From Deltaproteobacteria bacterium (GTDB lineage: Bacteria > CG2-30-53-67), in the NCBI GenBank assembly GCA_013151235.1, contig JAADIO010000034.1:1-40169 (forward strand): a stretch of DNA of 40,169 nt, given 5' to 3'. Of the stretch, positions 250-29,560 are shown piece by piece (the stretch's first letter is position 1; each line of letters begins with the position of its first letter). Position numbers and translations under genes: made by a program. Below the pieces are notes generated by a model. It saw only the letters and a program-made list of their open reading frames with translations. It was not told where the DNA came from and searched no databases.

Positions 250-395
250 GGCATCCCCTACATGCCCCCTGAAAAATATGGGGAAGGTCGCCCAGGGTCG
301 CCGCCTTTTCGGTCCGTCGACCTATCCCCGAACTCGAATCTCCGTACTTATCCCGTACTTGTTTTTGCCAAAAGCCAACAATACAAGACAACTTC

Positions 396-11872: not shown

Positions 11873-11894
11873 ACCGTCACGATCGGGTGAGACC

Positions 11895-12068
11895 TGATGG
11901 TGTCGTAAAAAGTCGTTTTTCGGATTCCGTTCATGGTTCGACAAGCTTCCGAGAATGGTGAGCTCGCCGAACCACACGAACAGAATATTAATGACTTACA
12001 CCGTTCACCCTGAGCACGCCTGTCCTGAGCCGGCCGAAGGGTCGAACGGACTTTTTACGACTTCATCA
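11895..12068. mobile_element. MITE-like element, copy 1 (174 bp), in the valS leader
   Basis: The left terminal inverted repeat is TGATGGTGTCGTAAAAAGTC (11895-11914). The right one, read on the other strand, is TGATGAAGTCGTAAAAAGTC (12068-12049); 18 of 20 positions agree. The copies of GACC at 11891-11894 and 12069-12072 directly flank the element as a 4-bp target duplication. The interior has several smaller inverted repeats (GGTTCGACAAGC, GCTCGCCGAACCACACGAA, GGCCGAAGGGTCGAACGG) and no gene. The copy at 28791-29090 shares ends and interior. Ends of the form TG...CA with 4-bp duplications recall IS3- or IS481-type transposases, but none is present. Confidence 0.8.
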
Positions 12069-12126
12069 GACCTGGATCGTTAAAAAAACGACGGATAGGC
12101 AAGAAAATCAGGAAAAGGAAGAAACT

Positions 12127-25728: not shown

Positions 25729-28383
25729 ATGAAGGGTTCGGAAATTCGCAGCCTTTTTTTGGATTATTTTGAGAAAAAAGGCCACAAAATTCTCTCCAGC
25801 TCTTCCCTGATCCCCCGGGATGACCCGACCCTTCTCTTTACCAATGCGGGGATGGTCCAGTTTAAAGATATCTTTACGGGGGAGAAAAAGCGGACGGTTC
25901 CGACGGCGGCCACGTCGCAGAAGTGCATGCGGGCCGGCGGCAAACATAACGACCTGGAGAATGTGGGACGTACGGCCCGTCACCAGACCTTCTTCGAAAT
26001 GCTGGGCAACTTCTCTTTCGGCGACTATTTCAAGGAGGAGGCGATTCCCCTGGCCTGGAAATTTCTGACCGGGGAGCTTTCTCTTCCCACCGAACGTCTC
26101 TGGGTCAGCGTCTATCACGAAGATGAAGAGGCTTTCCGGATCTGGAAAGAGAAGATGCACGTTCCGGAGGAGCGGATCCTCCGCCTGGGAGAGAAGGACA
26201 ACTTCTGGGCCATGGGTGACATCGGTCCCTGCGGCCCCTGTTCCGAAATTCACATCGATCAGGGAGAGGGAATCGGCTGCGGCCGGTCCGGATGCAATGT
26301 GGAATGTGACTGCGACCGCTTCCTGGAAATCTGGAACCTTGTCTTCATGCAGTATTCACGCGACGCTGCGGGCCAACTTACTCCCTTGCCGAAGCCGAGT
26401 ATCGACACCGGCATGGGCTTGGAACGCATCACAGCCGTGGTGCAGGGGGTGACCTCCAATTACGATACCGATCTTTTCTCGGGGATCATTGAGGCGATCT
26501 GCTCGATTGCCGGGGTCCGGTACGGTACAGGACAGGACTCCGATACATCCATCCGGGTGATTGCCGATCATATCCGGGCATTGACTTTCCTCATTGCCGA
26601 CGGCGTTCTTCCGAGCAATGAAGGGCGGGGCTACGTGCTCAGGCGGGTCTTGCGAAGAGCGGCCCGGCACGGTAAACTCTTGAACGTGGAAGGTCCTTTT
26701 CTCTACAGGCTCTCTGCAACGGTCGTCGATGAGATGCGGGGGGGCTATCCGGAACTGGTCCCGGCCCGGGAGCATGTGGCGGCCGTCATCCTGAATGAGG
26801 AGGAACGTTTTCTCCATACCCTGGATCAGGGGCTGGCCCTCCTCAACGAAGAGATCGACAAACTGGCGCGGTCGGGGGAAACGATCCTGGCGGGAGAGGA
26901 GGTTTTTAAACTCTATGATACCTATGGTTTTCCGCTTGATCTGACCCGGGACATCCTTGGGGAGAAAGGGCTTTCCCTCGACGAAACCGGATTTCATAAG
27001 GCGATGAACCGGCAACGGGAGCGGGCACGGTCCTCCTGGAAAGGGGGCGGTGAAAAAGGGGTTGACCCTCTTTTCAAGGGATTGTCCGAAAAGTTCTCCA
27101 CCTCTTTTGTAGGCTATGAGCGGATCGAGGCTGTAGCTACAGTGGTTGCCCTCATTCAGGAGGGCAAGGTTGTCGAGGCGGTCTCGAAAGGGGAGGAGGC
27201 CCTGGCGGTCCTCGATGTGACTCCCTTTTATGCGGAATCGGGCGGTCAGGTCGGAGATCAGGGACGGATCGAGTGGGAAGGAGGGAGTGCCGTCGTTCAT
27301 GAGACCCGCCGGCCTGCCGGGGAGATGATTGTTCATGCCGTCCGGGTGGAAGAAGGGAAGCTGCAGACGAGGCAGGCGGTTACCGCGAAAGTGGATTCCG
27401 AGGTCCGTCGGAAGACGGCGGACAACCATACGGCCACCCATATTCTCCAGGCTGTTTTGCGCCGGGTGTTGGGAGATCATGTGAAACAGGCCGGGTCGCT
27501 GGTTGCGCCCGACCGGCTCCGGTTTGATTTTACACACTTCACGCAGGTGGGGCCCCGTGAACTGGAACGGATCGAACAACTGGCCAACGAATGGATTCGG
27601 CGGGACGCCCCTGTTCAAAAAGAGGTCAAGCCGCTGAACGAGGCGTTAGACGAAGGGGTCACGGCTCTCTTCGGGGAGAAGTATGGCGATGAGGTCCGAG
27701 TGATCTCGATCCCGGGTCTTTCAAAGGAACTCTGCGGCGGAACGCATATCGATCGGACGGGTGAAATCGGTCTTTTCAAGATTGTTCATGAGGGAGGGAT
27801 CGCAGCCGGGGTCCGCAGGATTGAGGCGGTCACGGCGGACAGCGCCTACCGGTCCTTCAAATCCTCTGAATCGGAACTTCTGAGTCTTGCGGAGATGGTT
27901 CGGGGCGCGCCGGGAGAGATTGTCTCTAAGGTGGAAAAAATCCTCCGGGATCGAAAGGCTCTGACTGCCGAAGTGGCTGCCCTGAAGCGGGAGCTTGCCG
28001 CAGCGAAAGGGGGCGATCTTGACGAAGATGTGCAGGAAGTGGAGGGGATCCGGATTCTCTCCCGGCGAATGGACCGACTGTCCATCGAGGAGCTGCGTGA
28101 CTTTGCAGACCAGGCAAGGGACAAGATCGGATCGGGTGTGATTGTGGCCGGGTCCGCCAACGATGGAAAGGTCGCCCTCGTGGCGATGGTCAGCCGCGAT
28201 CTGACCGGCAAGGTTCATGCCGGGAATCTGATTCGGGAAGTGGCGAAGGTGACCGGCGGAGGCGGAGGCGGAAGGCCGGACATGGCACAGGCCGGCGGAA
28301 AAGACCCCTCCCGGTTGGATGAAGCTCTGTCGATGGTAGCGGACCTGGTTCGTCAACAGGTGGGACCGGCCGGTTCCGGTTAA
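25729..28383 (+). CDS. alaS: alanine--tRNA ligase
   Basis: An 884-residue class II synthetase of normal length. It has an N-terminal catalytic domain (MKGSEIRSLFLDYFEKKGH, FTNAGMVQFKDIFTGE, motif region HQTFFEMLGNFSFGDYF), a tRNA-recognition region, and an editing domain with HTATH (567-571) and CGGTH (669-673). The C-terminal C-Ala domain is glycine-rich (TGGGGGGRPDMAQAGG) and DHH-like. ATG 25729 is preferred because AAAGGGG lies 5 bases upstream and homologues begin MKxSEIR; GTG 25699 and ATG 25702 are in frame but lack an SD. The gene has its own promoter and no T-box. Confidence 0.97.
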   Translation: MKGSEIRSLFLDYFEKKGHKILSSSSLIPRDDPTLLFTNAGMVQFKDIFTGEKKRTVPTAATSQKCMRAGGKHNDLENVGRTARHQTFFEMLGNFSFGDYFKEEAIPLAWKFLTGELSLPTERLWVSVYHEDEEAFRIWKEKMHVPEERILRLGEKDNFWAMGDIGPCGPCSEIHIDQGEGIGCGRSGCNVECDCDRFLEIWNLVFMQYSRDAAGQLTPLPKPSIDTGMGLERITAVVQGVTSNYDTDLFSGIIEAICSIAGVRYGTGQDSDTSIRVIADHIRALTFLIADGVLPSNEGRGYVLRRVLRRAARHGKLLNVEGPFLYRLSATVVDEMRGGYPELVPAREHVAAVILNEEERFLHTLDQGLALLNEEIDKLARSGETILAGEEVFKLYDTYGFPLDLTRDILGEKGLSLDETGFHKAMNRQRERARSSWKGGGEKGVDPLFKGLSEKFSTSFVGYERIEAVATVVALIQEGKVVEAVSKGEEALAVLDVTPFYAESGGQVGDQGRIEWEGGSAVVHETRRPAGEMIVHAVRVEEGKLQTRQAVTAKVDSEVRRKTADNHTATHILQAVLRRVLGDHVKQAGSLVAPDRLRFDFTHFTQVGPRELERIEQLANEWIRRDAPVQKEVKPLNEALDEGVTALFGEKYGDEVRVISIPGLSKELCGGTHIDRTGEIGLFKIVHEGGIAAGVRRIEAVTADSAYRSFKSSESELLSLAEMVRGAPGEIVSKVEKILRDRKALTAEVAALKRELAAAKGGDLDEDVQEVEGIRILSRRMDRLSIEELRDFADQARDKIGSGVIVAGSANDGKVALVAMVSRDLTGKVHAGNLIREVAKVTGGGGGGRPDMAQAGGKDPSRLDEALSMVADLVRQQVGPAGSG

Positions 28384-28405
28384 CGGTCCCGTCGGCAGGT
28401 CGGCT

Positions 28406-28447
28406 GAAACGGTTTTCGCTGTTTGAACTGTTCGAACGGTTGAAGCG
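28406..28447. repeat. degenerate short tandem repeat (GAACGGTT type)
   Basis: Units such as GAAACGGTTTT, GTTTGAACT, GTTCGAACG and GTTGAAG follow each other with a period of about 8-10 bases between alaS and the phasin-like gene. A 22-base imperfect palindrome centred on TTCGAA is part of it. Confidence 0.5.
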
Positions 28448-28472
28448 GATTCATATTTAAGGAGGGACGATC

Positions 28473-28793
28473 ATGTTTGAGCCGATGAAAAAAGCGCTTT
28501 TGGTTGGACTGGGGATTCAGGAGAAGATGAAAGAGTATGTGGACGACCTGGTCCGAAAGGGGGAAGTCAGCAAGGAGCAGAGCGGTTCTCTGTTCAAGGA
28601 TCTGATGGGGTCCGCGGAAAAGAATCTTGAAGGATTGGAAAAGAGCTGGCGGGAAATTATCCAGTCGACCATGGAGCGGATGAACCTCCCTACCCGCACG
28701 GATATGGAAAATCTGGAAAAGAAGGTGAATGCACTCAGCCGTCGTCTGGCCAAGCTCGACAAAGAGGGGAAAGAAGAAGAGGAAGAAAAGTGA
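28473..28793 (+). CDS. phasin-like coiled-coil protein (COG3937 type)
   Basis: A 106-residue, highly charged helical protein. It has an amphipathic N-terminus (MFEPMKKALLVGLGIQEKM), a coiled-coil middle and a heptad-rich C-terminal end (TRTDMENLEKKVNALSRRLAKL) closing with a Glu/Lys run. This matches the polyhydroxyalkanoate-synthesis-regulator phasin group, which coats granules or acts as a small coiled-coil factor; no PHA genes are visible here. AAGGAGG lies 7 bases before the ATG. The TGA stop belongs to the mobile element that begins at 28791. The ancestral stop, TAA, is preserved in frame on the far side of the element (29095-29097), so the insertion left the protein unchanged. Confidence 0.8.
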   Translation: MFEPMKKALLVGLGIQEKMKEYVDDLVRKGEVSKEQSGSLFKDLMGSAEKNLEGLEKSWREIIQSTMERMNLPTRTDMENLEKKVNALSRRLAKLDKEGKEEEEEK

Positions 28794-29090
28794 TAAGGTC
28801 GTAAAAAGTCGTTTTTCGGATTTCGTTCATGGTTCGACAGGCTCACCACGAACGGTTCATTAAACTTTCCGAGCATGTGGTTCGGCAAGCCGACCACGAA
28901 CGGTTCATTAAACTTTCCGAGCATGTGGTTCGGCAAGCTCATCATGCTCGGAAGCTTGCCGAACCACACGAACGGAATATCAATAACTTACACCGTTCGC
29001 CCTGAGCACGGCTCTCCTGAGTATGTCGAAGGGCCTGTCCTGAGCCGGCCGAAGGGTCGAAGGGCTTTGCGAGTTTTTACGAGACCATCA
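28791..29090. mobile_element. MITE-like element, copy 2 (300 bp), after the phasin-like gene
   Basis: The left end is TGATAAGGTCGTAAAAAGTC (28791-28810). The right end, read on the other strand, is TGATGGTCTCGTAAAAACTC (29090-29071). AAAG flanks both sides (28787-28790 and 29091-29094). The interior matches copy 1 near both ends and is expanded by a 48-bp tandem duplication (units starting at 28846 and 28894, with CCACGAACGGTTCATTAAAC). Several internal inverted repeats around GGTTCGGCAAGC occur. No coding capacity. It occupies nearly all the gap between the phasin-like gene and ruvX. Confidence 0.8.
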
Positions 29091-29134
29091 AAAGTAAGTC
29101 CTTGATTTTCCTCTGTACCTGTGGAAGGAGTTTG

Positions 29135-29560
29135 ATGAGAGCGATCGGTCTTGATTTCGGTGAGAAGAGTATCGGTGTCTCCGTGAGCGATCCTCTGGGA
29201 ATGATCGCCCAGGGTTTGAAGACGATTCGTCGCAAGAGCTGGCATGCCGATCTGGAGGAACTCCGTGCGATCATCGACGAATACGAAGCCGACCGTCTGA
29301 TAGTCGGCCTGCCCAGGAATATGGACGGAAGCTTCGGGCCTTCCGCCGAGAAGGTACAGCTCTTTATGAAAAAGTTGAAGATTTTCAACCTTCCCATTGA
29401 GCCGGTGGATGAGCGCTTAACGACCGTCATGGCGGAACGGGCATTGCTGGAAGGAGACGTGAGCCGTAAGAGAAGGAAACAGGTGATCGATCAGGTGGCG
29501 GCGGCTCTCATCCTTCAGGGTTACCTGGATCGGCTCAGCCGGGAGCGGAAGGGTGATTAG
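29135..29560 (+). CDS. ruvX: Holliday junction resolvase-like RuvX (YqgF)
   Basis: A 141-residue RNase H-fold nuclease. YqgF/RuvX processes the 5' end of 16S pre-rRNA and resolves Holliday junctions in vitro. Motifs: AIGLDFGEKSIGVSVSDPLG with the first catalytic Asp, LIVGLPRNMDGSFGPSAEKV, PVDERLTTVMAER, and DQVAAALILQGYLD with the last Asp. ATG 29135 has GGAAGGAG 4 bases upstream; an earlier in-frame start (29102) is just outside the MITE-like element and lacks an SD. The mltG start overlaps the end of this gene, as in many deltaproteobacteria. Confidence 0.93.
   Translation: MRAIGLDFGEKSIGVSVSDPLGMIAQGLKTIRRKSWHADLEELRAIIDEYEADRLIVGLPRNMDGSFGPSAEKVQLFMKKLKIFNLPIEPVDERLTTVMAERALLEGDVSRKRRKQVIDQVAAALILQGYLDRLSRERKGD

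Follow-up and report, generated by a model that had tools for sequence, protein, structure and literature searches.

The gene for a phasin-like protein in the window analysed here (a 40,169-nt stretch of a deltaproteobacterial genome) ends on a stop codon that belongs to a mobile element. A 300-bp non-autonomous element (MITE), bounded on both sides by AAAG, lies exactly between the last codon, AAG, and the former stop, TAA, and its first three bases, TGA (28791-28793), now close the reading frame. The same exchange of stop codons was found at further genes and in further genomes. We consider it very probable that the element is a MITE moved by an IS1182-related (IS5-superfamily) DDE transposase, with a staggered cut in a palindromic target and an in-register swap of the stop codon.

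The element at the phasin-like gene

The features of the locus, together with the other member of the family in the window, are as follows:

28473..28793, + strand: phasin-like gene, 106 aa (direct reading; Pfam Phasin PF05597, 5.3e-10)
28787..28790: left target-site duplication, AAAG (direct reading, end alignment)
28791..29090, + strand: MITE, 300 bp, non-coding, strongly self-complementary
28791..28809, + strand: left terminal inverted repeat TGATAAGGTCGTAAAAAGT, with TGA and TAA in frame as tandem stops
28830..28925, + strand: internal 48-bp direct repeat (D4), two copies, with the REP-like motif GGTTCG..CACCACGAACGG
28915..28977: internal inverted repeat (I5), arms 28915-28939 and 28953-28977
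29072..29090, - strand: right terminal inverted repeat TGATGGTCTCGTAAAAACT, as read on the - strand
29091..29094: right target-site duplication, AAAG (direct reading, end alignment)
29095..29097, + strand: ancestral TAA stop of the phasin-like gene, 304 bp 3' of the present coding end
29135..29560, + strand: RuvX/YqgF-like gene (by sequence), 37 nt past the old TAA; gene order matches relatives
11895..12068, + strand: copy 1, MITE family member, 174 bp, with GACC at 11891-11894 and 12069-12072

Read directly, the junctions run in the order GAA GAA AAG, TGATAAGGTCGTAAAAAGTCG ... CGAGTTTTTACGAGACCATCA, AAAG, TAA GTCC. Deletion of positions 28791-29094, i.e. the element and one AAAG, brings AAG TAA back into the phasin-like frame, and a TAA that comes from the element stands in frame directly 3' of the new TGA. 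The initial annotation had proposed that AAAG marks the same boundary as GACC does in copy 1, and that the insertion fell between the last codon and the stop; both proposals are borne out by the junctions. The ORF list holds no transposase-sized ORF within the 300 bp. Elsewhere in the window, an int-alpA RNA (Rfam RF02996) was recorded at 265-332 (- strand), with a score of 37 bits (gathering score 35.8).

Unrelated DNA, and no element, lies 3' of the phasin-like gene in each of five relatives, where the gene stops at TGA (same genus, with a different tail), TAA, TAA, TAG and TAG; the phasin-like gene and ruvX are neighbours there too. A phasin-like gene ending in an ancestral TGA followed by the present sequence, the finding that would have spoken against an insertion, was not seen in any of these five. 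The exact empty site AAG TAA GTCC, for which a search had been suggested, was absent from every relative searched because the spacer has diverged; the predicted pre-insertion allele would be GAAGAAAAGTAAGTCC. For two other copies, L121 (CTTCAAGGAATGAA, with one AGGAA) and L140, the sister species does have an empty site that reads across the junction. The latter copy (G000:C61, 1385-1520) lies inside an N-terminal signal-peptide region, and the gene is unbroken in the sister species. The sister species also carries a 155-bp copy of its own, L176 (G001:C86, 3356-3510), directly upstream of the same phasin-like gene, as an independent insertion.

The MITE family and its transposase partner

The window's own genome (G000; 2.62 Mb, 73 contigs) was compared with that of a sister species (G001) and with further genomes (G002, G004). 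The end pattern of the element was matched 189 times (99+90) in G000, as against 13 (5+8) for the reversed control, and 86 local BLAST matches to the 300-bp element were obtained; the genome holds roughly 90 copies. As many contigs break inside element copies, copy numbers are underestimated. Such breaks are seen in both G000 and G001, e.g. element ends no more than about 140 bp from contig ends in the latter.

The G000 copies are 106-331 bp long and contain no transposase-sized ORF. Exact duplications of 4-5 bp flank 49 of the 57 paired copies (42 with 4 bp, 7 with 5 bp), a sample of about two thirds of the estimated total, while the left flank of one copy agrees with the right flank of an unrelated one in 1.4% of pairings, and in 0.75% at shifted positions. 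The genome-wide alignment of element ends that the initial annotation had called for therefore repeats the phasin-site boundary in dozens of copies. Short length (<500 bp), lack of a transposase gene, terminal inverted repeats, duplications of fixed length and an autonomous partner (see below) are the hallmarks of a MITE, and all are present. Between identical ends, the interiors differ widely (G000, L204-L283), with many REP-like palindromes (GGTTCGACAAGCTCACCACGAACGG, GTCATTGCGAGGAGCAAAGCGACGAAGCAATC and TTCCCGCCTACGCGGGAA).

A search of public genomes gave at least 119 stretches with the exact end TGACGGCTTCGTAAAAAGTC, mostly from Desulfobacterota, with a few from Nitrospirota and Nitrospinota. 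Paired public copies with these ends measure 67-301 bp and have very unlike interiors; among the public loci listed for this end, none has a partner end 0.5-4 kb away. A related 156-bp element had no match in plasmids.

The autonomous partner is represented by 1.9-kb insertion sequences that share the MITE ends TGATGGNCTCGTAAAAAGTC (G001:C17, L342, L383 and L384). Both ends of L342 fit the end pattern exactly, and L383 (ATCT) and L384 (TTGT) have both ends together with a perfect 4-bp duplication; no matching duplications were found at the two full-length insertion sequences G001:C17 and L342. The G001:C17 insertion sequence encodes a 605-aa transposase (DUF772 + DDE_Tnp_1_6), the domains of the partner transposases being DUF772 and DDE_Tnp_1 or DDE_Tnp_1_6. 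The D motifs DSMH/DSVH and AD..YGSDDN are kept in three aligned transposases, and Y(2)R(3)E in both of those that reach the C-terminus (YRYRAGIE in P0002, YRWRAGVE in L342), so that the DDE with Y(2)R(3)E signature of the IS4/IS5 superfamily is present; these residues presumably form the catalytic triad. Against NCBIfam NF033551 (IS1182) the G001:C17 protein scores 159.2 bits, below the cut-off of 270, and judged by its sequence the partner is best regarded as IS1182-related, not as an IS1182 member.

What remains of this transposase in the window's genome is a decayed N-terminal fragment (G000:C33:49668-49872), and for this reason the G000 copies look like descendants of past transposase activity. 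As no intact transposase of the MITE family was found in that genome, we infer mobilisation there, including that of the phasin-site copy by an IS1182-related transposase.

Another candidate for the autonomous element, an IS1182 transposase on G004:C150 (P0001) with ends at 1.93 kb, was rejected. It is a passenger, since it has inverted repeats of its own (AGAGACTGTGTCATAATCCC) and lies within the GCCCTCTCCC/GGGAGAGGGC MITE hairpin. At this locus (L175), a complete IS1182 with its own ends thus occupies about 1030-2810 inside the hairpin, which fits the hairpin targeting reported for relatives of IS1182.

Target preference and exchanged stop codons

When the targets of 124 copies were pooled, an A preceded and a T followed the duplication in about 90% of them. 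The consensus is a palindrome, TCA-[4-5 bp]-TGA (YYA/TRR), with a looser form YYA-[WNNW]-TRR. Of the 250 triplets that adjoin a duplication, 110 are stop codons, where about 10 are expected: 32 of 98 in G000 (3.3 expected, p 5e-23), 13 of 24 in G001, 7 of 18 in G002/G004 and 58 of 110 in other genomes (5.4 expected, p 7e-46). Stop codons are so frequent at the border because the target is a YYA/TRR palindrome. Among 56 long ORFs running into the border, the restored stop stands at offset 0 in 15, and the next most frequent offset has at most 4; the phasin-like gene, at 110 codons, is below the ORF length limit of this count and is additional to the 15.

Fourteen genes with an exchanged stop, the phasin-like gene included, could be assigned to a protein family; they come from eight genomes:

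Phasin-like gene, G000: TAA to TGA
L082, G000, ODP-type beta-lactamase-fold protein: restored stop at border
L098, G000, 2-hydroxyglutaryl-CoA dehydratase-like protein: restored stop at border
L101, G000, FabG-like reductase: restored stop at border
L106, G000, response regulator with HD domain: TAA to TGA
L134, G000, HemL-like aminotransferase: TAA to TGA
L084, G000, ABC ATPase: restored stop from an older abutting element end
L353, G001, aconitase: TAG to TGA
L190, G002, AccD: restored stop at border
L224, other genome, DnaJ: TAG to TGA
L227, other genome, KsgA: TAG to TGA
L258, other genome, macro-domain protein: restored stop at border
L286, other genome, TsaE: restored stop at border
L300, other genome, U32 peptidase: TAA to TGA

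The exchange itself stands as described by the initial annotation, which had treated it as a lucky insertion; that part does not hold, as the exchange is recurrent and predictable from the target preference. The G001 orthologues of L098, L134, L101 and L106 have their stop codons at the same position (TAA, TGA, TAG and TAA, respectively). At L082 (427-582 of G000:C14) the element entered an ATGA overlap between two genes without destroying the stop of the first or the ATG of the second, since the duplication supplies the A again. Two further loci fit the pattern, L115 on the - strand with 184 codons and L181 with 167 codons and no Pfam match; as neither could be placed in a protein family, they were not counted among the 14.

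The element opens with TGA and mimics the target half-site in register. We suggest that the transposase would recognise the TGAYNNNNTCGTAAAAAGTC ends of the MITE and make a staggered cut in the TCA-[4-5 bp]-TGA target (or its looser form), so that the element would end up with the 4-5 bp repeated on either side of it. TGA has the same position with respect to the duplication in target and element alike, and where the target TRR is an in-frame stop, the TGA of the element assumes its position and frame and the old stop shifts downstream. Stop is thus replaced by stop, with the protein unchanged, because the two triplets are in register; at the phasin-like gene TAA gave way to TGA, and the insertion was presumably neutral for the phasin protein. 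After insertion the ends read YYA-[4-5 bp]-TGA or TCA-[4-5 bp]-TRR, i.e. each end again reads as a target, and the element therefore rebuilds its own. Six tandem junctions, in which two element ends are 4-5 bp apart, fit such a rebuilt target.

The same distribution might arise from survivor bias only, if insertion were random or AT-biased and copies at stop codons persisted as those within genes were lost. Purging of in-gene insertions is to be expected, and many copies are indeed intergenic. However, the tenfold enrichment in G000 concerns mostly border stops other than gene ends: only about 7 of the 32 end recognisable genes, the others lying in frames without clear coding signal (the coding status of frames was assessed from codon usage and Pfam matches rather than from expression), and selection for surviving insertions is for this reason not the main cause. 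Nor would selection on stops produce a palindromic consensus that also covers TGG and the mirrored YYA side. We regard survivor bias as very unlikely to be the whole explanation, and we infer that the target preference belongs to the transposase. It is still less credible, and in our view nearly negligible, that the 300 bp are an ancestral spacer or a REP/BIME-type repeat with AAAG repeated by chance. REP-like palindromes of the element interior do occur outside the MITE family as well (G038), as such a reading would have it, but it would leave unexplained the exact duplications at a fixed boundary in most paired copies, the lack of the element at the orthologous place in the five relatives and the transposase genes bounded by the same ends. 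REP/BIME repeats are single palindromic units without duplication, whereas the present elements have duplications and long inverted ends; duplications are not known from REP elements moved by RAYT transposases.

A different proposal concerns the maintenance of the phasin-site copy, which may have been retained as a regulatory 3' end, with hairpin and tandem stop uncoupling phasin from ruvX. The predicted RNA fold of 28791-29093 is very stable (-122.7 kcal/mol, z -6.1), TGA and TAA are in frame, and the two genes adjoin each other in relatives. Nevertheless, the same elements stand at many unrelated genes, a TGATAA start is found at only 3 of 114 element ends (the phasin-site copy included), and neither terminator-like nor promoter-like sites were found in 28300-29300, which leaves a terminator role unsupported; we consider regulatory retention unlikely. 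Somewhat less doubtful, albeit still a tentative idea, is that the target preference of the transposase was itself selected to match stop codons, gene ends being safe harbours with no cost at the protein level.

If confirmed, the preference would provide a simple, testable rule by which an element may reach high copy number in a compact bacterial genome and do little harm. It would also account for stop-codon changes at the conserved genes dnaJ, ksgA, hemL, fabG, accD and tsaE, and would tie an orphan repeat widespread in Desulfobacterota to its transposase.

Relation to known mobile elements

MITEs with 4-bp duplications are known, and in the open-licence papers searched we found no description of insertion sequences or MITEs that target stop codons, nor of a stop-matching target combined with an in-register stop at the element tip. 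A close parallel to the family is offered by the ISMac2-related MITEs of Methanosarcina acetivorans (160 bp, 14 copies), which are likewise short and non-coding, with terminal repeats, 4-bp direct repeats and an IS1182 partner (PMC3852290). The kind of MITE is therefore already known; the ISMac2 elements differ in belonging to another host domain, and the accessible part of that report describes neither a target consensus nor stop exchange. The Chunjie MITE of Geobacter uraniireducens, which is inserted in an operon and is known from 38 copies of 178-235 bp and additional fragments, is also deltaproteobacterial; the review citing Chen et al. 2008 (PMC10969869) does not describe stop exchange for it.

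IS1272 and the IS1182 family resemble the partner in their related DDE transposase type and in reported structure-linked targets, but IS1272 takes the place of a stem-loop and creates no duplication (PMC5678879), whereas insertions of the present family are flanked by 4-5 bp duplications, and stem-loop replacement of the IS1272 type does not describe it. With respect to the effect on a gene, the phasin-site copy is comparable to QMITE2 of Coxiella burnetii, a MITE at the 3' end of enhC that likewise shifts the stop, with the protein gaining 33 residues in one strain (PMC5896051). In contrast to this extended protein, the phasin-like protein is unchanged.
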